NCBI RefSeq assembly: GCF_020852615.1
Contig: NZ_JADZAJ010000023.1
Coordinates: 1-64,000 of the forward strand
DNA from: Nitrosomonas sp.
GTDB taxonomy: Bacteria; Pseudomonadota; Gammaproteobacteria; Burkholderiales; Nitrosomonadaceae
Direction: 5' to 3'
DNA length: 64,000 nt
Part shown: positions 22,358 to 55,165 of the stretch, one piece after another
Layout: every line of letters starts with the position of its first letter
Numbering within the stretch: the stretch's first letter is position 1
Notes under the pieces: model-generated
The model's input: only the letters and a program-made list of their open reading frames with translations
Told to the model about the DNA's origin: nothing
Database searches by the model: none
Made by a program: the position numbers and the translations under genes

Positions 22358-23296
22358 ATGTCCACTCCACAGCCTCACCAGAACCATACTCATACCGGGG
22401 TCGGTCATGAGGACCACAATCATAAACTGGTTCTTACAGAAGATAACGAGCGCCGCATTCGCTTCGTTTTTTTTCTTACCGCCAGTTATGCGCTGATACA
22501 GGTAATTGGCGGATGGCTATCCGGATCATTGGCGCTGATTGCTGATTCGGGGCACATGGCTTCTGATGCTGCCGCACTCTTGCTGGCACTGATTGCTTAC
22601 CGGATGGGTAAACGGCCGGCTGATGGTACGAGAACTTACGGGTTTCATCGTATTCGTGTGCTGGCTGCACTGGCAAACGGTGTAATGCTGCTGTTACTGG
22701 TAGTCTGGATTATCCGGGAGGCTATTGATCGGATCCACACGCCGGCAGAAATCCTGGCCGGACCCATGCTGATAGTGGCTGTGGCTGGTCTTGTTGTGAA
22801 TCTCGCCGGAGCCTGGATTTTATGGTCCGGTAACCGGGGGGATAGTAATCTGCGTGGTGCTTTGCTGCATGTGATCGGGGATCTGTTCGGGTCAGCAGGT
22901 GCTATTGCGGCCGCAGTTGGCATTATGTTCACCGGCTGGATGATTCTTGATCCGATTCTGTCGGTGCTGGTCGCTTTGCTGATTGTCCGCTCGGCCTGGG
23001 AGCTGGTTAAAGATTCAATACATGTACTGCTGCAGGCTGTGCCCAGAGGAGTAGATGCCCGGGCAGTGGAGAGCGGCCTGGCACAGTTGCCGGAAATCGG
23101 GGAAGCCGGGCATTTTCATGCCTGGGTTCTGACAGATGAATCGATTGTGGCAACGGTTCATGTCAGCCCTGCGCGTGGTGTTGACCCGTTATCTCTGCCT
23201 TCGCTGGTATCATCCTGGCTGAAAGAGCGTTATGCGATAGATCACGTTACCGTGCAGATTGATCCGCCCGGGCAACTGGATCGCGAACATCGCTGA
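22358..23296 (+). CDS. Cation diffusion facilitator family transporter (Zn/Co/Cd type)
   Basis: A 312-residue CDF protein of the CzcD/ZitB branch, exporting divalent metals from the cytoplasm by proton antiport. The N-terminus is rich in histidine (HQNHTHTGVGHEDHNHK). Six membrane helices follow, with the transport-site motifs ADSGHMASD in TM2 and HVIGDLFGS in TM5 (HxxxD pairs). A cytoplasmic ferredoxin-like C-terminal domain contains HFHAWVLTDESIVATVHV. It lies 27 bp after copA in the same direction. The histidine-rich head and HD-HD pattern favour zinc, with cobalt or cadmium as secondary substrates; this is family knowledge, not shown here. Confidence 0.92.
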   Translation: MSTPQPHQNHTHTGVGHEDHNHKLVLTEDNERRIRFVFFLTASYALIQVIGGWLSGSLALIADSGHMASDAAALLLALIAYRMGKRPADGTRTYGFHRIRVLAALANGVMLLLLVVWIIREAIDRIHTPAEILAGPMLIVAVAGLVVNLAGAWILWSGNRGDSNLRGALLHVIGDLFGSAGAIAAAVGIMFTGWMILDPILSVLVALLIVRSAWELVKDSIHVLLQAVPRGVDARAVESGLAQLPEIGEAGHFHAWVLTDESIVATVHVSPARGVDPLSLPSLVSSWLKERYAIDHVTVQIDPPGQLDREHR

Positions 23297-44275: not shown

Positions 44276-44351
44276 GCGCCCATAGCTCAGTGGATAGAGT
44301 ACTGCCCTCCGAAGGCAGGGGTCGCACGTTCGAATCGTGCTGGGCGCGCCA
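44276..44351 (+). tRNA. tRNA-Arg (anticodon CCG)
   Basis: A 76-nt cloverleaf. The acceptor arm is GCGCCCA with TGGGCGC, the D arm contains TAGCTCAGTGGATAGAGTA, and the anticodon stem CTGCC/GGCAG holds loop CTCCGAA with anticodon CCG, reading arginine codon CGG. The T arm is GCACG-TTCGAAT-CGTGC. The discriminator is G and CCA is encoded. A TATAAT-like -10 lies at 44130-44135, but no good -35 accompanies it. The tRNA sits just before the defence operon; tRNA 3' ends are frequent integration sites, but no direct repeat of this end was found downstream. Confidence 0.97.
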
Positions 44352-44587
44352 TATATATCTTCCGGCAATAAAACTGAAGATTGCGGTTATTACCCATTCT
44401 TTCACCGATATTCTTGATACCTCGCCAGCCGGGATATATCAACTCCTGTGGCATCTTCCATCAAAATCCAGTACAGAAGGAGATGTGTGGAAAAAAAGGT
44501 GTTGAAATGCCCTCTCCTTAATGCTGCAAGTGTGCTTTATGATTAGTTGCAGTAGCCTGGTTTGTCTTGATTAAGCCTGATAGTTGA

Positions 44588-46132
44588 ATGGAAAAAAACA
44601 GTCAGTACCCCGTAATAGACTTGTTTGCCGGTCCGGGCGGACTGGGGGAGGGTTTTGCGACCTGCCCTGGTGAAAGTGGTAAGCCGCGCTTTCACAGCCT
44701 TGTTTCCATTGAATGTGATTTGTTTTCGCATAGGACACTCTTACTCCGCCATTTTCTTCGCTTGTTCCCATCAGAAGAAATACCTGAACCCTATTATGAT
44801 TATCTTCGTGGCGGTATCGAAATTGAAGATCTGTACCGACAATACAATACGCAGTATCACGAAGCCAGCAAATCCGCACTGCAGATCGCTCTGGGAAAAG
44901 AAACACACGGTTATGTACAGGAAATCATAAATAAGCGCCTGACAGGCAGGAAAAAATGGGTGCTGGTTGGTGGTCCGCCGTGTCAGGCTTATTCTCTTGT
45001 CGGTCGTTCCCGGATGATGAAAAGCCCTGATTTTGAGAATGATGAGCGGCATTTTCTGTATCGTGAATATCTGAAAATCATTATTGATCACCATCCTCCA
45101 GTCTTTGTAATGGAAAACGTCAAGGGACTTCTGTCGGCACGAGTCGAAGGCCAGCCTGTAATTTGGCGTATTATTGGTGATCTGACAGCCCCCAAAGCTG
45201 CTCTTGGCAGCAGCATTAACGGTCTGGGTTATCGTCTCTATTCATTGTCAGAGGATGAGCTTCCCGGTGAATGCGTTGATCCACGGCTTTTTCTTGTGAA
45301 AGCAGAAGAATTTGGGGTTCCGCAGGCCCGTCACAGGATGTTTATTGTCGGAATTCGCAGCGATATAAATGTTAAGCCTCGCCGGTTGTGCCGGCATAAG
45401 GCTCCTGCTGTTGAAGATACCATCGGACATCTTCCGGCTGTGCGCAGTGGATTATCCCGCGGTAGGGACAGTCCGGAAGCATGGTGGAATGAAATTGTCG
45501 CAGTAGCGACAGGAGATCTGTACAGAGAGCTGAACAATGAGTGTGCCGCTACCATTGTTAGCAGGATCAGGTCATACACCAATAGCGGCAGCCCTCCTGT
45601 GGAACGGTCATCAGCCCGGTATCCGGGTCGGATAGTAGGACAGCATCGTGTATTGACATTCATGCGCGATGACAGATTATGCTTTTTGGACGCTCATGGC
45701 GCGCGCACCCATATGGCGTCCGATCTTCGTCGCTATATGTATGCGGCAGTATTTGCCAAAGTTATGAAGCGCAGTCCAAAGCTTTCTGATTTCCCGGGAT
45801 CTCTTCTTCCTGACCATCGCAATGCGGGCCTTGGTGCATCGGGAAAAATGTTTTCTGATCGTTTCCGGGTACAGCTGTCGCATGAAGTTGCCACGACAAT
45901 CACATCGCACATCTCGAAGGATGGACATTACTTTATTCATTATGATCCTCTTCAGTGCCGCAGCCTTACTGTTCGGGAAGCTGCTCGTCTGCAGACATTC
46001 CCTGATAATTATAAATTTGAGGGTCCGCGAACTCAGCAATACCATCAGATAGGGAATGCCGTCCCTCCATATCTTGCTGCACAGATAGCAGAAATCATTG
46101 CTGAAGTCCTTGATTCAATGAAAGATGACTAA
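44588..46132 (+). CDS. DNA (cytosine-5-)-methyltransferase
   Basis: A 514-residue C5 methyltransferase. Motif I is DLFAGPGG (residues 11-18), motif IV GGPPCQ with catalytic Cys132, motif VI ENV (176-178), motif VIII QARHR (246-250) and motif X IGNAVPP (488 onward). The long region between VIII and X is the target-recognition domain, so the modified site cannot be guessed. It transfers methyl from S-adenosylmethionine to cytosine in DNA, protecting self DNA in this restriction-like system. Its stop overlaps the vsr start (TAATG). Base composition is mixed, near the genome average, and differs from the GC-rich core that follows. Confidence 0.93.
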   Translation: MEKNSQYPVIDLFAGPGGLGEGFATCPGESGKPRFHSLVSIECDLFSHRTLLLRHFLRLFPSEEIPEPYYDYLRGGIEIEDLYRQYNTQYHEASKSALQIALGKETHGYVQEIINKRLTGRKKWVLVGGPPCQAYSLVGRSRMMKSPDFENDERHFLYREYLKIIIDHHPPVFVMENVKGLLSARVEGQPVIWRIIGDLTAPKAALGSSINGLGYRLYSLSEDELPGECVDPRLFLVKAEEFGVPQARHRMFIVGIRSDINVKPRRLCRHKAPAVEDTIGHLPAVRSGLSRGRDSPEAWWNEIVAVATGDLYRELNNECAATIVSRIRSYTNSGSPPVERSSARYPGRIVGQHRVLTFMRDDRLCFLDAHGARTHMASDLRRYMYAAVFAKVMKRSPKLSDFPGSLLPDHRNAGLGASGKMFSDRFRVQLSHEVATTITSHISKDGHYFIHYDPLQCRSLTVREAARLQTFPDNYKFEGPRTQQYHQIGNAVPPYLAAQIAEIIAEVLDSMKDD

Positions 46133-46551
46133 TGGCAGATCGGATTTCTCCTAAACATCGCAGCTGGAATATGTCACGTATCCGCAATAAAGATACGCGC
46201 CCAGAAAAATGTCTGCGTTCTCTGCTGCACCAGGCGGGTTTCCGGTTTCGTCTGCACGTATCAAATCTTCCTGGAAAACCTGATCTGGTTCTGCCACGTT
46301 ACAAAACTGTTATTTTTGTTCATGGCTGTTATTGGCACCGGCATTCCGGGTGTAAAAACGCAACCACACCCAGTACACGCACTGATTTCTGGGTTGCCAA
46401 ATTTCAGGGAACAGTTAAGCGAGACCAAGAAGTGGCCGATAAACTGATAAATCAGGGTTGGCGTGTAATTATAGTCTGGGAGTGTGAACTGAAAAATAAC
46501 CCGGACTCTGTTATTCAGAAAATTTGTCAGCAGCTTACAGGAATTAATTAA
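46132..46551 (+). CDS. Vsr-type very-short-patch DNA endonuclease
   Basis: A 139-residue nuclease of the Vsr family, which nicks DNA 5' of T:G mismatches that arise when 5-methylcytosine deaminates. Signatures are SRIRNKDTRPE, LPGKPDLVLPRYKTVIFVHGC and CYWHRHSGC. Asp51, His69 and His71 fall at the positions I recall as important in E. coli Vsr. Next to the methylase it could repair its deamination products, or act as a nickase within the defence system. It overlaps both neighbours by one base. The 3' end is AT-rich (37 percent in one hand-counted line) up to the stop, where the GC-rich gene begins. Confidence 0.92.
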   Translation: MADRISPKHRSWNMSRIRNKDTRPEKCLRSLLHQAGFRFRLHVSNLPGKPDLVLPRYKTVIFVHGCYWHRHSGCKNATTPSTRTDFWVAKFQGTVKRDQEVADKLINQGWRVIIVWECELKNNPDSVIQKICQQLTGIN

Positions 46552-48029
46552 TGGCACGGGAGCACAGACATCCACCAAGCGCGGCCTGTCTCTCGGCGTC
46601 GATGAGGGATCTCGGATACTCGCTCGAAACGGCCATCGCAGACCTGATCGACAACAGCATTTCCGCGGGTGCGGATGTGATCGACATTGTCTGCGATGTT
46701 TCGGGCGAACATCCCGTACTTGTCATTCTCGACAATGGCAGAGGCATGGATGAGGCGGAATTGCTGGCCGCAATGCGTCATGGAACCGACAACCCCAGAC
46801 GGCACCGTTCCCCAAGGGATCTCGGACGCTTTGGTCTTGGGCTGAAGACGGCGTCGTTCTCGCAGTGCCGCTCCCTGACAGTGGTCAGCACAAGTGATGC
46901 CTCCATCTGTGGTGCCGAGTGGAACCTGGATCGCATCGATGCAGCAGACGACTGGATCCTGAGCATTCTTGATGAGGCCGACATCCAGGCGCTGCCCTAT
47001 GTCGATCGGCTCGGAAGGCACGGTACCGCAGTCCTCTGGCGAGAACTCGATCGCATACTCGAAGACGAAGTCGGGGATCGGCGGCAGGAAATCGTGAACG
47101 AGAAGCTTGAGGTGGTGGGGCGACATCTCGCCCTCGTCTTCCATCGCTTCCTTTCGGGCGAGGTCAAGGGGCATCCCAGAATCACGCTTGCCATCAACGG
47201 TCACCCCATTGCCGCATTCGATCCTTTCTGCAGAAAGAATCCGGCCACTCAGGTTCTTCCGGAGGAAATTGTCCGCATCGGCGATGCGGAAGTGTGCCTG
47301 CAACCCTATGTGCTGCCACACCACAGCCGTCTTTCCGCGTCCGAGTACGACTACTACCAGGATCGCAGCGACTTTATCTCCAACCAGGGAGGCTATGTCT
47401 ATCGGAACGGGCGGCTGATGGCGTGGGGAGACTGGTTCCGGCTGGTGCCCAAGGGTGAGGCCACCAAGCTGGCGCGGGTGCAGATCGACTTCCCCAACAG
47501 TCTGGACGAAGCCTGGACAATCGACATCAAGAAGTCGCGCGCGCGACCCCCTCATGTGGTGCGTGAGCGCCTGCGCCAGATCATCGCCAGAATCACCAGC
47601 CGCAGTGTGACGGTACATCGGGGACGCGGACAGAAGCTGTTTCAGGAAACCCAGGCACCGTTCTGGGAGCGCTATGCCGATCATGATGGCATCCGGTTCG
47701 CGATCAACGACCAGCATCCGATCATCGTCTCACTGGCAGAAAGACTCTCGCCAGAGGATGCAGACCTGCTGCGCACGCTGCTTGATTCGGTTGCGGCCTC
47801 GCTACCGGTCGAGATGATCTATTCCGACTACTCAACCCACCCACGCGAGATCAATCAGCGATCGGTGGATGAAAGCCAGACCATGGAGCGCCTGAGAAGC
47901 CTGCGCCAGGTGCTGTACGGCGACAGGCCGGGCGATGCGAAGGCCTTTCTTCAGATCGTGCGCTCCACGCATCTTTTCGATGGTCAGATGGAGCTGGCCG
48001 AAAAATTCATCAGCGAGGCCTTTGCATGA
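46551..48029 (+). CDS. GHKL ATPase, MutL/MORC-like
   Basis: A 492-residue ATP-binding protein. The N-terminal GHKL domain carries an N-box DLIDNS (31-36), motif G1 DNGRGM (61-66), and G2 GRFGLGLKTAS (92-102), the signature shared by Hsp90, gyrase B, MutL and MORC proteins. The C-terminal half has no motif I recognise. ATP binding presumably closes a dimer around DNA, as in MutL/MORC proteins; this is family knowledge. It starts within the vsr stop (TAATG) and overlaps the Z1 gene by 4 bp. Composition rises here to about 60 percent GC with GC-ending codons, unlike the flanking genes, which suggests a different origin. Confidence 0.88.
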   Translation: MAREHRHPPSAACLSASMRDLGYSLETAIADLIDNSISAGADVIDIVCDVSGEHPVLVILDNGRGMDEAELLAAMRHGTDNPRRHRSPRDLGRFGLGLKTASFSQCRSLTVVSTSDASICGAEWNLDRIDAADDWILSILDEADIQALPYVDRLGRHGTAVLWRELDRILEDEVGDRRQEIVNEKLEVVGRHLALVFHRFLSGEVKGHPRITLAINGHPIAAFDPFCRKNPATQVLPEEIVRIGDAEVCLQPYVLPHHSRLSASEYDYYQDRSDFISNQGGYVYRNGRLMAWGDWFRLVPKGEATKLARVQIDFPNSLDEAWTIDIKKSRARPPHVVRERLRQIIARITSRSVTVHRGRGQKLFQETQAPFWERYADHDGIRFAINDQHPIIVSLAERLSPEDADLLRTLLDSVAASLPVEMIYSDYSTHPREINQRSVDESQTMERLRSLRQVLYGDRPGDAKAFLQIVRSTHLFDGQMELAEKFISEAFA

Positions 48030-50686
48030 GCATTACAGCCATCACGGAAGAACGAAACATTGCCAACGCGCTTATCTCGGGCCTTGCCAACATGGCGGAA
48101 ACGCCGACGCGCGATCAGGTGGAGGAAAAGGCAAGACAGATTGCTTCAATCTTCGGCTATGCGGGAGATCTCCGCAACATTGTCACCGAGGCCATGGAAT
48201 CGGTTGTGACCCGCATGGGAGCAGGCATTTCATTGGTTGATGTCAATGCGAAGCATGACGATCAATGGGTTCACAAGCGCGAGGACGTCACTTGGACCTA
48301 TGCCAGTGCATACGAGGAATTCCTTCGCAACGAGGGCTGGCCTCCGCAGATGGTCCAGTCGCTGAGCGATGTGACCACCCGCATTCTTGGTCATCTTCAG
48401 GATCCACTGAGCGAAGGCACGAGCTGGAACCGCCGTGGCCTGGTCATCGGCCATGTGCAGTCAGGGAAGACAGCCAACTACACGGGTCTGATAGCACGTG
48501 CAGCCGATGCGGGCTACAAGTTCATTGTCGTCATCGCAGGCATTCACAACAACCTGCGCAGGCAGACACAGCAGCGAATCGACGAGGCCTTTATAGGCCG
48601 ATCGAGTGATCCCGAGGATCGCCGCAACATCGGCGTCGGTCTCGCTCCGGGCTATCCGCATCCGGCAACGCTTACCAACATCAACGAGGACTTCAACAAG
48701 AACACAGCGGCCAAGAGCGGCTGGAAGATCAACGACTTCAGCAAGCCGATCATCCTGATCATCAAGAAGAACGTCACGACGCTCACTGCGTTGCACAAAT
48801 GGCTGAAGGCGCTGAACGCCGAAGGAGAAGACCGCATCTCCGATGTACCCATGCTGCTGATCGACGACGAAGCCGACAACGCATCCATCAACACGAACAA
48901 GGAGGACCTGGATCCGACCCGGACGAATGCCATGATTCGCCGCATCCTGGGGTTGTTTGCGAAGTCCTGCTACGTCGGATATACGGCAACCCCGTTCGCC
49001 AACATCTTCATCAATCCGGATGCCTATGGCGATGATGTGCAGGAAGAGCTTTTCCCTCGCGACTTCATCTATTGCCTGGATGCACCCACCACCTATTTCG
49101 GTGCGGAGAAAGTATTCTTGAATGAGGCGACCAGCGAATCGATCATCAGGCCGATCGATGATTGCGAGGATCTCATTCCCTACTCGCACAAACGCGACGA
49201 TCCTGTCCATGAGCTGCCTCCCAGCCTCTATCGCGCACTCGACGAGTTCATCGTCGCACGCGCCATCCGAAACCTGCGCGGACAGGCCAGCAAGCATTGC
49301 TCGATGATGGTCAATGTGTCGCGCTTTGTGCCGGTGCAGAAGGCTGTGCGCGATTTCCTGAGCCTCAGGGAAAAGAAGATCAGGGAAGCGGTTCTCGCAA
49401 ACTACGCGATGCCGGAGGGTGTTTCTTCAAGGAACATGTACATGCAAGGCCTGAAGGGTGCCTTCGACGCCGAGTATGCCGATGCCGGGGTGACGTGGGA
49501 GGAAGTGAAGGCAGCTCTCGTCGGCGTCTTTGAGCACCTTCACCTCTACGTCATCAACAGCAAGAGTGACGAAGTGCTCGACTACACCCGCTACGAGAAG
49601 GAAGGTATTGGGCTGACTGTGGTCGCGGTCGGTGGTCTGAGTCTGTCGCGAGGCTTGACCATCGAGGGATTGACCGTCAGCTACATGTACCGCAACACGA
49701 AGATGTACGACACCCTCATGCAGATGGGTCGCTGGTTCGGCTACCGGCTGGGCTTCGAGGATCTCTGCCGTGTCCATCTCTCCCGCGATTCGATCAACTG
49801 GTACTCCCACATCGCCGAAGCTGCCGAAGAACTTGTGCAGCAGGTCAAGCGCATGCGGCGCGATCGCCTCAGTCCAAAGGACTTTGGGCTTTACGTCCGC
49901 TCGCATCCGGACAGCCTGCTGATCACGGCCGCGAACAAGATGAGATCCGGCCAGGAGGTCACGGTCGAACAGAGTTTCAGTGGGCGACTCCGTGAAAGCT
50001 ACATCGTCTCCACCGCCCCCGACGTGAATGCCAGGAACTTTGAGCTGATCGCCGATCACTGGCGAAATGGATTCGGCGGACGGCCGGAGGAGTCCACCGA
50101 GAAAGGCGTCATCTTCAGAGACGTGCCCGTCGAGGTGATCGCCGATTTTCTCACTCGATTCGAATGCCATTCGACCTTTGCGGGACAGAAATCAGACGTG
50201 GTGAGCTATCTCGAACGGATCGCAACGAAGCGTCCGCTTGCGGATGTTCTGCTGATTTCTCCCTCGGGTGGATCGGGCGGCGAACGCCCATTCACCTTGA
50301 GGAATCAGGTGCGTGTCGTCGGGAAGGATCAGCCGAATGGCATTGCGTGGCGCCTGAACAAGGACAGGGTTGCTTCGCGTGGTGACGAGAAGCTCGGGCT
50401 CAGCGACGAGCAACGCGCTGAGGCGAGAACAGTCGCAGGCGACGACGACGGCTCGGGGGCGGTATCCGACACACATTACCGGATGGTGAGGAACAGACCC
50501 CTCCTCATGATTCACAGTCTGGAGCCCAAGGGCGATGCTGTGATGGGGCCGATCGCTGCCTTTGGCATGAGCTTCCCTTACGGGGACTACTCGACGACCA
50601 TCAATGTCGTCGTCAACAAGGTCTGGCTCCAGCAGATGCAGGGTTATGCGGACGATCCTGACGAGGAGGAGGACTACGATGCCTGA
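48026..50686 (+). CDS. Z1-domain helicase-like ATPase
   Basis: A large protein of 886 residues with a superfamily-II-like motor. Walker A is GHVQSGKT (142-149), Walker B DDEAD (280-284), and a motif III-like TATPFA (320-325) sits in CYVGYTATPFANIF. Further on, GLSLSRGLTIEGLTVSY and MQMGRWFGYR are the Z1 signature segments. Z1 proteins occur in restriction-modification operons beside MutL/MORC-like ATPases and PD-(D/E)XK nucleases, and are thought to translocate on or remodel DNA. The N-terminal 130 residues are unassigned. It is GC-rich, overlaps the GHKL gene by 4 bp (ATGA) and overlaps the nuclease gene by 8 bp. Confidence 0.9.
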   Translation: MSITAITEERNIANALISGLANMAETPTRDQVEEKARQIASIFGYAGDLRNIVTEAMESVVTRMGAGISLVDVNAKHDDQWVHKREDVTWTYASAYEEFLRNEGWPPQMVQSLSDVTTRILGHLQDPLSEGTSWNRRGLVIGHVQSGKTANYTGLIARAADAGYKFIVVIAGIHNNLRRQTQQRIDEAFIGRSSDPEDRRNIGVGLAPGYPHPATLTNINEDFNKNTAAKSGWKINDFSKPIILIIKKNVTTLTALHKWLKALNAEGEDRISDVPMLLIDDEADNASINTNKEDLDPTRTNAMIRRILGLFAKSCYVGYTATPFANIFINPDAYGDDVQEELFPRDFIYCLDAPTTYFGAEKVFLNEATSESIIRPIDDCEDLIPYSHKRDDPVHELPPSLYRALDEFIVARAIRNLRGQASKHCSMMVNVSRFVPVQKAVRDFLSLREKKIREAVLANYAMPEGVSSRNMYMQGLKGAFDAEYADAGVTWEEVKAALVGVFEHLHLYVINSKSDEVLDYTRYEKEGIGLTVVAVGGLSLSRGLTIEGLTVSYMYRNTKMYDTLMQMGRWFGYRLGFEDLCRVHLSRDSINWYSHIAEAAEELVQQVKRMRRDRLSPKDFGLYVRSHPDSLLITAANKMRSGQEVTVEQSFSGRLRESYIVSTAPDVNARNFELIADHWRNGFGGRPEESTEKGVIFRDVPVEVIADFLTRFECHSTFAGQKSDVVSYLERIATKRPLADVLLISPSGGSGGERPFTLRNQVRVVGKDQPNGIAWRLNKDRVASRGDEKLGLSDEQRAEARTVAGDDDGSGAVSDTHYRMVRNRPLLMIHSLEPKGDAVMGPIAAFGMSFPYGDYSTTINVVVNKVWLQQMQGYADDPDEEEDYDA

Positions 50687-51644
50687 GTCCTCGCCCTGGG
50701 ATGGAATCGCCGTTCCTGGAGCGGATTTCAATGTCCGTCAGGTTGCAGTGAACACGGCCGTGCCCTGCTTCTGGGGACGCGATGCCAGTGGTGCCTGTCT
50801 GTTCATTGTGGAACTTCACGGCGACCACGCAGCACAGTATCGGAAGAACGCGGTCGCGGTGAACGGCGTCGATGTCGATCTTCGTGCCGGAGATCAGGGG
50901 CAGCAACACCTGGTCCTCGCTCTTGAAAGACAGGTTGATCGCGATCTTTTCGAGGGACTGTGCCGTACCCTTGCATTCGCGCTGGAGCATGCCACCGACT
51001 CGGCCAGCTCTCTGGCAGTCTCGCTGGCGCACATCCGTCGTTGGAAGACTTTCCTCTCGGGCCGAAGTCAGCATCTGTCCGCAGAGGATGTTCGAGGCCT
51101 CTTCGCCGAAATCGTCTTCCTGACGGAACTGATCGATCGGGAAATGCCGAGCAACGCCGTCGTCGAAGCCTGGCTTGGTCCGGAACGGTCACATCAGGAT
51201 TTCATCTTCGGCAACACGGCTGTCGAGGTCAAATCCCTCTCGGGCGCCGAACGAAGCAGCATCCGCATTTCGTCGGAAGACCAGCTCGAATCCCTGAACG
51301 ACGCACTGTTCCTGCGCGTGTACCGGCTGAGCAATCTGGCTGACGCGGCAGGTGCCCGCTCGCTCAACGAGCTTGTCACTGCCGTCCAGGCGCGGCTCGA
51401 CAAGGCAGAGGCCATCGAGGCCTTTGACCGGAAGCTGGTTGCGCACGGCTACGCGCCGCTCCCTGACTACGATGAGCCGCGTTTTGTCGTCAGCGACGTG
51501 CGCAGCTATCGGGTCGCCGATGATTTTCCGCGTCTCATGCGATCGCAATTGCCGACTGGGATTGTCAAGGTCGCCTACGACATCAGGCTTGAAACGATCG
51601 CTCCGTATCAGTGTGACGAGGCGGTCGTCTTTGGAGGAGATTGA
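50679..51644 (+). CDS. PD-(D/E)XK motif protein, putative nuclease
   Basis: A 321-residue protein of the family annotated as 'PD-(D/E)XK motif protein' (DUF4420-like). The restriction-nuclease core is visible as Asp174 in HQDFIFGNTAVEVKS, with Glu183 and Lys185 (D-x8-ExK). The start at 50679 follows GAGGAGGA, inside the end of the Z1 gene, and was preferred to an in-frame codon 75 bp earlier with no such signal. The N- and C-terminal flanks have no known domain. It is the likely DNA-cutting subunit of the operon. It overlaps the AIPR gene by one base (TGATG). Confidence 0.82.
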   Translation: MPESSPWDGIAVPGADFNVRQVAVNTAVPCFWGRDASGACLFIVELHGDHAAQYRKNAVAVNGVDVDLRAGDQGQQHLVLALERQVDRDLFEGLCRTLAFALEHATDSASSLAVSLAHIRRWKTFLSGRSQHLSAEDVRGLFAEIVFLTELIDREMPSNAVVEAWLGPERSHQDFIFGNTAVEVKSLSGAERSSIRISSEDQLESLNDALFLRVYRLSNLADAAGARSLNELVTAVQARLDKAEAIEAFDRKLVAHGYAPLPDYDEPRFVVSDVRSYRVADDFPRLMRSQLPTGIVKVAYDIRLETIAPYQCDEAVVFGGD

Positions 51645-53587
51645 TGGAACAGACAGCCTATGAATTCTTCCACGACTTTCGACAGGAACTCCTGTCTGGT
51701 GCCGAAGCCAATGGCCGGTTCCAGCTTGATGAGTTCATGGAAACTGTTGCCGACGAACTTGTCGAAACAGGCTTCACCGAGGGGTTCGAATTGTGTCACT
51801 ATCGTCCTCCACAGGGCGGGATGCGGGTGGATGGATACTGGTTCAATGACGAAGGGAACCTGGATCTTTTTGTTGCTGATTTCGATTTCCGTACCGAACT
51901 GGCTTCCCTGACAAAGACAGAGCTTGAATCGACATTCAAGCGTCTGTCCAGGTTCTTCGAGGCAAGTATCGACAGGAATCTTGCGGTCGATCTTGAGGTC
52001 ACTTCGCCTGCGTACGGTCTCGCCAAACAGATCGCCGATCGCAGAGGAGCCATCGGCGCACTCAACCTGATTCTTCTCTCCGAGCGCACGCTCAGCGGGA
52101 CAGTGCAGAGCCTTCCGGAAGGGGAAGTTGCTGGCATTCCTGCCAGCTATCACGTATGGGATATTTCGCGACTTCATCGTCAGCGCAATTCTCGAAGTCA
52201 CAAGGAGCCGCTTGATTTGGACTTCGTGCAGATGTTCGGCAGGGGAATCGCCAGCCTTCCTGCTCATCTGGGAGCTGATACCTATCAGTCCTTCCTCATG
52301 GTCATGCCTGCCGATTCTCTGGCGACTCTGTACGGAAAATTCGGAGCACGCCTGCTTGAACAGAACGTTCGCACCTTCCTGCAGGCCCGTGGCAATGTGA
52401 ACCGGGGCATACGGGCAACGATCCTGAACGAGCCGGGAATGTTCTTTGCCTACAACAACGGGATCACGGCCACTGCGCAGAGTGTCGAGACCGAGGCAAC
52501 GGATTCCGGTCTGGCGATCACAAGGATTGTCGATCTCCAGATCGTCAATGGCGGGCAGACCACCGCATCCCTGTTCCATACGCGGAAGCGGGACAAGGCG
52601 GACCTTTCCCAGATATTCGTCCAGATGAAGCTGTCCGTCATCGACAGCCAGCAAAGCGAGATGGTTGTGCCGAAGATATCGGAGTATGCGAACACCCAGA
52701 ATCGGGTGAATGCTGCCGACTTCTTCTCGAATCATCCGTTCCATGTCCGGATGGAAGGGTTTTCGCGGCGCATCTGGGCGCCGGCGCAGAAGGGATCCCC
52801 TCGCGAGACGCGCTGGTTCTACGAGCGCGCACGCGGTCAGTATGCCGATGCACAGTCAAAACTGACACCGGCAGAGCAGCGTCGCTTCAAGGCCGAGCAT
52901 CCCAAGCTGCAGATGTTCACCAAGACGGATCTTGCAAAATTCGAGAATGTCTGGGATGACCATCCCAAATGGGTCAATCTTGGCTCACAGAAAAATTTCT
53001 CACAATATGCCGCTCGAATCTGCCATGAATGGGAAAAATCATCTGATAAATTTGATGGGTTCTATTTCAGAAGGGCTGTTGCCCGGGTAATCATATTTAG
53101 AGCTGCTGAAAAAATCATATCCGGTCAACCTTGGTATAACGGCGGATACCGTGCCAATATCGTTGCCTATACCCTTGCAGCTCTGGGAGAGATTGCAAAG
53201 CGCAGCCAAAAAAACATTAATTTTTCGGCAATTTGGGATAAGCAAAGAATCGATTCCGTACTTGAAAGAACCATTGCTATTATTTCAGAAATAGTGTACG
53301 GAGATATTACCTGTCCGCCACAGGGTATTTCAAATATTTCCGAGTGGTGCAAGAAGGAAGCCTGCTGGAAACAGGTTCAGTTATGTTTACCGAAGCTGGA
53401 ACAGCTGTTGCCGGGAGAATTTTTTGAAAATTTGATAACTGCTGATCAGCAGATTACAGAGATCCGAATTGTTCCGGAAAAGCAGAAGGGTGGTAGTTTT
53501 ATTGATAAACATCAGCAAATGTCAACAATCCTCTTTATTTCAAAATGGCAAAAATTCTGGAGAAAAGTACGTGAGGGCAGTAGCTGA
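51644..53587 (+). CDS. AIPR family protein
   Basis: A 647-residue protein with the AIPR (abortive infection phage resistance) domain. Typical elements are FFAYNNGITATA (Tyr270-Asn-Asn-Gly) and DLQIVNGGQTTAS (Ile300 to Thr307), then PKISEYANTQNRVNAADF. AIPR proteins occur in abortive-infection and restriction-like loci; their biochemical activity is uncertain. The gene follows a strong GGAGGAGA site. Composition changes within the gene: hand-counted lines at 52381 (38 of 60 GC) and 53281 (22 of 60) differ strongly, and the switch is near 52930-52990, about codon 430-450. The reading frame is open throughout, so the change is a fusion of two sources, not a decayed tail. Confidence 0.88.
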   Translation: MEQTAYEFFHDFRQELLSGAEANGRFQLDEFMETVADELVETGFTEGFELCHYRPPQGGMRVDGYWFNDEGNLDLFVADFDFRTELASLTKTELESTFKRLSRFFEASIDRNLAVDLEVTSPAYGLAKQIADRRGAIGALNLILLSERTLSGTVQSLPEGEVAGIPASYHVWDISRLHRQRNSRSHKEPLDLDFVQMFGRGIASLPAHLGADTYQSFLMVMPADSLATLYGKFGARLLEQNVRTFLQARGNVNRGIRATILNEPGMFFAYNNGITATAQSVETEATDSGLAITRIVDLQIVNGGQTTASLFHTRKRDKADLSQIFVQMKLSVIDSQQSEMVVPKISEYANTQNRVNAADFFSNHPFHVRMEGFSRRIWAPAQKGSPRETRWFYERARGQYADAQSKLTPAEQRRFKAEHPKLQMFTKTDLAKFENVWDDHPKWVNLGSQKNFSQYAARICHEWEKSSDKFDGFYFRRAVARVIIFRAAEKIISGQPWYNGGYRANIVAYTLAALGEIAKRSQKNINFSAIWDKQRIDSVLERTIAIISEIVYGDITCPPQGISNISEWCKKEACWKQVQLCLPKLEQLLPGEFFENLITADQQITEIRIVPEKQKGGSFIDKHQQMSTILFISKWQKFWRKVREGSS

Positions 53588-53603
53588 TGACGGAAAAAGA
53601 GAT

Positions 53604-53648
53604 ACCGGCAAATTATCTGACAGATAATTTGCCGGTGGATGGTTTTTC
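53604..53648. terminator. Bidirectional terminator, 33-bp palindrome
   Basis: ACCGGCAAATTATCTG, one central base, and its exact inverse span 53604-53636. On the plus strand TTTTT follows shortly (GGATGGTTTTTCG); on the minus strand ATCTCTTTTTCC follows. It lies 17 bp behind the AIPR stop and downstream of the convergent cytochrome gene, so it can end both transcripts. Confidence 0.75.
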
Positions 53649-53748
53649 GTGAAGGATTTTTATTTTTACAGAACAGGTACGCCAGGGTGGCGATGCTGCA
53701 TATCTGCAAAACCGGGCTGCAGAACTTAAGGGAGTATATTTCAGCAGC

Positions 53749-54228
53749 TTATTTCGGTCTGTTCTCGATTCGGGTGTACCACCCCTGATAAACTTCGTCC
53801 GGCCACAGGGATTTAATCCAGACCAGGATGTCATCAATCTCCTGATCTTTCAGGATTCCCGCCCAGCCGGGCATGCGTCCTTCCCCCGGAGGGCCACCGT
53901 TCAGAATGAAGTTTTTCAATTCTTCTGTGGAATGGTGCCAGGCATGCGCCGTTCCATTCAGAGGCGGGGGCGGGTATCTGCCATTCTCCAGGGGCTTGCG
54001 CCAGTCTGGAGTGCCTTCTGCGTTCCGGCCATGGCATACCGCACAATTTTTCCGGAAAAGCGCCTGTCCGCGCGCCATTTGTTCAGGATCAAAATTTCGA
54101 ACAATTTGTTCAGCGGAATTTCTGCCTAAAATCTGATCCAGTGTGCTGCCTGCCGTCAGAGGGCCGGTTTGTTCCGAGCAGGCAGCAGTAAGGAGCAGTG
54201 ATACAAGCGCTGTGATTCTTACGGACAT
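53749..54228 (-). CDS. Class I cytochrome c lipoprotein
   Basis: A 159-residue mono-heme cytochrome c. A lipoprotein-type signal ends at LTAAC (Cys17), placing it on the outside of a membrane. The heme site is Cys62-Ala-Val-Cys65-His66, and the distal ligand is probably the methionine in GEGRMPGWAG. The C-terminal helix contains EIDDILVWIKSLW, typical of the class. It would be an electron carrier. The ATG at 54228 was preferred over a GTG one codon before. Its start lies 5 bp from the end of the upstream DUF411 gene, so the two are co-transcribed. Partners are unknown. Confidence 0.88.
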   Translation of the reverse strand: MSVRITALVSLLLTAACSEQTGPLTAGSTLDQILGRNSAEQIVRNFDPEQMARGQALFRKNCAVCHGRNAEGTPDWRKPLENGRYPPPPLNGTAHAWHHSTEELKNFILNGGPPGEGRMPGWAGILKDQEIDDILVWIKSLWPDEVYQGWYTRIENRPK

Positions 54229-54232
54229 CACG

Positions 54233-54763
54233 TTATTTAAGTTTCAGAATAGATTGGGTTGTGTTACTTTCGGATGCCTTCTCTGCCGGTTGGGGTTTAT
54301 CCGGGCCGTATCGATTATAAATCTCTGCGGCGCTGCGCTTGTCTCCGGGTTTTCTGATCAGGAGTACGTTATAGGTGTCAACCCGCCCGGTTTCCATGCC
54401 AGGAGAACCATGTGGCATGCCGGGGGCTGATAATCCAACTGCGCGGGGACGTTCTTTCAGAAGCTGTTTGACGTCGCTGGCAGGGACATGTCCTTCTATG
54501 GCATAACCATCAATCATGGCGGTATGGCATGAACCAAGCTCGGGAAGGATACCGGCCTCTGCTCTGGTTTCATCGTTACCGGTATCGTGGATGTTGACGG
54601 TAAATCCGTTGTCGCGCATGTGATCAACCCATTTGGCACAACAGCCGCAGGTTGGACTTTTATACACTTCGACGGTTGTTGTTGCTGCAGCCACGCCGGC
54701 AACTCCTGCTAATACAGCAGTCAGTAAGGAACGGGTAAAAAATCGGTTGAATTGTATTTTCAT
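54233..54763 (-). CDS. DUF411 metal-binding protein, exported
   Basis: A 176-residue periplasmic protein. The signal peptide (about 1-26, RSLLTAVLAGVAGVAAA) precedes the DUF411 core: VEVYKSPTCGCCAKW with Cys39, Cys41 and Cys42, then ELGSCHTAMIDGYAIEGHVP and PGMPHGSPGME. DUF411 proteins are found with copper and metal resistance genes and the cysteines and methionines are likely metal ligands. The ATG at 54763 follows TTGGAGAG; a longer frame to 54823 lacks this and disrupts the signal. It is upstream of a cytochrome c gene in one operon. Confidence 0.88.
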   Translation of the reverse strand: MKIQFNRFFTRSLLTAVLAGVAGVAAATTTVEVYKSPTCGCCAKWVDHMRDNGFTVNIHDTGNDETRAEAGILPELGSCHTAMIDGYAIEGHVPASDVKQLLKERPRAVGLSAPGMPHGSPGMETGRVDTYNVLLIRKPGDKRSAAEIYNRYGPDKPQPAEKASESNTTQSILKLK

Positions 54764-55165
54764 TTGCTCTCCAATAATCTTGCCATGCATTTGTTTGCAA
54801 CGACCAGGGAAGACAGGCAGCACTAAACGCTTGCTTTATGCCGGTTTGAGAAAGAATAACGCTGGCTTCCGGTCAGTTTGACCATAAGCGTGCAGATAAT
54901 GTTCTTCCTCATCCCTGGCGAGTCAACTGTTGCATTGCTATAATTTTTATTTGTTCAAATTGCTATGATTCAAGGGGTAAAACCTTGAAGATGTAACTAT
55001 AACTGACTTTCTCTTTTTCCTGTCCCGGATAGGCAGGGAGAGCGGGCGGTTCTGTTTTTATACCCGTCTTGTCTTATATGAACGTTTCTTCCTCTGCTTT
55101 TCTCCGGAACGGGGAGCTCTGGCAGTTTTTTAACAGTATTTTTGTTAGGCACCTTGTAAATTCAT
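54764..55165. other. Divergent promoter region of DUF411 and ttcA
   Basis: 402 bp without a gene. A TATAAT hexamer at 54939-54944 (plus strand) could be a -10 element, with only a poor -35 (TGGCGA). A weak GC hairpin at about 55105-55120 is followed by TTTTTT near 55130. No gene or RNA was recognised. Confidence 0.4.

Follow-up and report, generated by a model that had tools for sequence, protein, structure and literature searches.

The six-gene operon at 44588-53587 in a 64,000-nucleotide stretch of Nitrosomonas sp. (contig NZ_JADZAJ010000023.1, positions 1 to 64,000; hereafter the window) encodes a DNA cytosine methylase, a Vsr-type endonuclease, a GHKL ATPase, an MzaC homologue, a DUF4420 nuclease and an AIPR protein, and from its protein matches it is predicted to be an mzaBCDE-like anti-phage system. 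The greater part of its GC-rich, 6.4-kb middle is nearly identical to the counterpart in distantly related bacteria. We consider it very probable (roughly 0.87) that this core was brought in by homologous recombination with a breakpoint inside the AIPR gene, the ends being kept. The incoming GC-rich core would have replaced the middle, between the methylase/Vsr end and the AIPR tail, as one internal tract, with the right crossover falling inside the AIPR gene at about codons 427-446 and the frame preserved. A preliminary description had read the operon as such a swap with these two ends, and the composition change points, the synonymous divergence of core and ends, and the conflict between AIPR trees all support it. 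The features are as follows (GC3, G+C content at third codon positions; E-values follow the profile named).

44276..44351, + strand: tRNA-Arg (CCG), left neighbour of the inserted operon (ARAGORN)
44588..46132, + strand: DNA cytosine methylase, end block (Pfam PF00145, 1.2e-42; GC3 43%)
46132..46551, + strand: Vsr-type endonuclease, end block (Pfam PF03852, 2.5e-29; GC3 39%)
46551..48029, + strand: GHKL ATPase, MzaB homologue, core (PADLOC MzaB, 4.1e-89)
46554..46593: left exchange point, as an interval (GC3 change point and jump in DNA identity)
48026..50686, + strand: gene between the GHKL ATPase and the DUF4420 nuclease (Z1 in the preliminary description)
50604..51644, + strand: DUF4420 PD-(D/E)XK nuclease, MzaD homologue, core (Pfam DUF4420, 4.5e-61; MzaD, 1.7e-24)
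51641..53587, + strand: chimeric AIPR gene, MzaE homologue, 648 aa (Pfam AIPR, 3.1e-103; AIPR_N, 1.7e-42; MzaE, 5.3e-82)
51641..52285, + strand: AIPR residues 1-215, block from a further source (GC3 57%; nearest P0004, P0005 and P0007, the last from Hafnia)
52919..52976: right exchange point inside AIPR, codons ~427-446 (GC3 change point and fall in DNA identity)
52976..53587, + strand: AIPR tail, Nitrosomonas type (GC3 38%; predicted all-helical in an AlphaFold2 model)
53594..54823, - strand: host chromosome resuming, with a hairpin (53590-53650), cytochrome c (53749-54231) and DUF411 (54233-54823) (Pfam)

Composition and Divergence of the Core

GC3 was 43.1% in the methylase and 38.6% in the Vsr gene, rose to 69.8, 72.5 and 68.0% in the three genes that follow, and along AIPR was 56.7% in residues 1-215, 72.6% in residues 216-445 and 38.2% in the tail. 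Segmentation of GC3 without preset places returned only two change points, one at 46578 (gain 67) and one at 52928 (gain 42); in 200 shuffles no gain exceeded 10.3. These fall at both proposed ends of the core, which the preliminary description had placed from the GHKL start to within AIPR; its seven hand-counted GC values were all exact. DNA identity to the related loci L014, L015 and L060 (20-bp bins) was 10-50% at 46440-46539 and 85-90% in bin 46560, near the TAATG in which the Vsr stop overlaps the GHKL start; at the right border it fell from 90% (52960) to 70% (53000). The AIPR reading frame is uninterrupted across the composition switch.

The same three loci are close relatives of the core, which is of class II (the class comparison was listed for 17 focus loci of 65). 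Core proteins were 93-97% identical overall (GHKL ATPase, 95-97%; DUF4420 nuclease, 93-95%; AIPR residues 216-430, 95-98%) and synonymous divergence (dS) was 0.15-0.23, whereas synonymous change in the methylase, Vsr and AIPR tail was beyond measure. These loci carry a methylase and Vsr of another type, with Vsr on the opposite strand. L022, cut upstream of GHKL, also has a class II core.

The methylase is 83% identical to a Nitrosomonas europaea protein (P0123) and 45% to the methylases of the core's relatives. P0123 and, for AIPR, P0002 are the closest named relatives, both from N. europaea, and for each the longest contig has 2,892,991 bases. Apart from its own copy, the best relatives of Vsr share 87-93% identity with it; P0242, which is among them, and the methylase relative P0124 each lie on a contig of length 2,821. 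Methylase and Vsr distances were highly correlated (r = 0.92) over the 57 of 81 loci (80 plus the window) in which M, V, B, C and E were all complete; these matrices exclude the DUF4420 gene, whose start sites were not placed in many loci. The gene taken as the L088 methylase has a similarity of only 31% and could be a wrong one, and a scripted search of the loci found no methylase in L032 or L034. Compared to the class II methylases examined, the motif VIII-IX stretch is 37-41% identical and the catalytic part 49-50%, and it is possible, on this sequence comparison, that the target differs.

A Chimeric AIPR Gene

The tail of AIPR belongs to a lineage shared with P0002, P0003 and P0006. Among the 60 rows listed, residues 430-580 were 82-90% identical to these three as opposed to 65-73% in the other 56, and residues 580-648 were 50-75% identical as opposed to 16-29%. 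The four proteins, including the window's, are 644-648 residues long, compared to 680-700 in 69 of the 79 complete frames of the loci. Their fronts differ: residues 1-220 of the window protein are nearest P0004/P0007 (Hafnia), the front of P0002 is mostly nearest L016-L029-type proteins, and that of P0003 is nearest L013-L015/P0009-type proteins. Since the tail is shared, at least three different fronts occur on one tail lineage. Of the separate trees proposed earlier, those of the AIPR parts were built from 38 of 200 aligned AIPRs. For residues 1-215, a clade of the window protein, P0002, P0003 and P0006 was rejected (approximately unbiased test, p = 1.8e-7), while in the tail tree the same four formed a clade (Shimodaira-Hasegawa-like approximate likelihood ratio support, 99), so that the trees conflict within one gene. 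For residues 216-440, which adjoin the breakpoint and hold few changes, the four-member clade was not rejected (p = 0.18).

The idea that the AIPR tail may be matched to local methylation specificity is weak as a general rule. AIPR C-termini are also cut to ~610 aa in other lineages (L078, L079, L081 and L088), and AIPR may therefore be able to do without its last 40-80 residues.

Among other loci, L029 is a clean mosaic and L032 a weaker one. The latter, a Halomonas operon (L032:4800-12050), combines a class II core with an AIPR tail and a Vsr that are closer to class III, and its AIPR frame ends early (610 aa).

Insertion beside tRNA-Arg

The interval between tRNA-Arg and the cytochrome c gene lacks the operon in G035 (~205 bp), G044 (~13 bp) and G056 (~96 bp), and the operon is therefore an insertion as a whole (44352-53594). 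In G037 the interval holds a different insert of ~3.15 kb, whose genes look, by eye, CYTH/CHAD-like and ParA-like. The window again matches the G037 chromosome from 53594 on, 7 bases past the AIPR stop, at 80% identity, and so the short AIPR end may reflect the insertion border. No integrase was found among the six operon genes (Pfam). A repeat search of 43.6-54.3 kb gave, among the matches listed, short two- and three-copy families and the 53590-53650 hairpin. Elsewhere in the window, its largest GC fall (-0.18, 600-bp flanks) lies at 23296, the end of an open reading frame (22358-23296), with no relation to the operon seen as far as examined.

Alternative Explanations

The vacant site in G035, G044 and G056 is also what would be expected if the chimera had been built in another bacterium and the whole operon then inserted beside tRNA-Arg, without replacement in this genome. 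This account gives the mosaic the same origin in a different place, and the GC3 of the operon ends (38-43%), unlike that of host genes (46-60%), speaks for it; yet the nearest named relatives of methylase and AIPR tail are from N. europaea, suggesting that the history of the ends lies in the genus, and we regard it as unlikely. It is improbable that the operon came in as one of class II, of which the core stayed and the methylase/Vsr end and the AIPR tail were each replaced by a separate exchange. The same final letters would be expected, and the class II type of the core is clear, but two exchanges with DNA of similar composition (GC3, 38-43%) would be needed, with the nearest named relatives in one species, and a single internal tract is simpler.

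Another account, against which the preliminary description had set its own, takes the operon as ancient and undivided, its composition grading naturally at the 3' end; it was rejected on 76 control loci and the AIPR trees and is highly improbable. AIPR genes do lose slight GC3 endward, by a mean of 2.5 points (sd 4.1) at the 76 homologous loci, but the step in the window is 26.5 points compared to a maximum of 14.7 elsewhere, the two parts of AIPR give conflicting trees, and a core with dS of 0.2 stands beside ends with synonymous change beyond measure. Just as hard to credit is a joining of two organisms in a metagenome bin, although the genome consists of 42 contigs (2.09 Mb), as a bin could. 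The identical chimeric AIPR protein (P0001) is found on 14 contigs, the longest of 192,025 bases, which makes a local misjoin unlikely; related tails carry other fronts in P0002, P0003 and P0006, and no stop interrupts the frame at the switch.

Relation to Known Systems

In PADLOC searches, the operon proteins matched MzaB, MzaC, MzaD and MzaE in the same order as in mzaABCDE (E = 4.1e-89, 1.5e-132, 1.7e-24 and 5.3e-82). In the available text of its description, mzaABCDE is a validated defence system in which mzaA is a sigma factor (PMC9523054). In the window, a cytosine methylase and Vsr precede the core instead of MzaA. No PADLOC match to MzaA was found in the six operon proteins (the neighbours SirB, cytochrome c and DUF411 were scanned with Pfam only), and the operon was therefore filed as mzaBCDE-like, not mzaABCDE. 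Its component set is shared with the MORC/paraMORC restriction-modification neighbourhoods, which, in the portion of the source available, comprise a GHKL ATPase, a superfamily 2 (SF2) helicase (DThhQXuRhFG), a restriction endonuclease-fold nuclease, a cytosine methylase, Vsr and AIPR (Iyer et al., 2008; PMC2292703); that portion reports no core exchange within an operon. The window operon contains a comparable motif, DTLMQMGRWFG. The CglI/NgoAVII restriction-modification systems, in the accessible part of their description (PMC4267653), differ in that their PLD nuclease carries a fused B3 site-recognition domain and that they have only three genes (methylase, R and N), and no PLD or B3 domain was found in the six operon proteins (Pfam, E 0.001). 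In Caulobacter, according to the available sections of PMC12907096, the fitness value of the solitary methylase ScmA depends on the Vsr-like VsrA, likewise a cytosine methylase paired with a Vsr-like protein; those genes are unlinked, whereas methylase and Vsr are adjacent in the window. In the open-access literature, judged by titles and abstracts, we found no account of a core being exchanged in Mza or paraMORC operons. If the exchange of the core is true, such systems would swap their machinery yet keep their own ends.
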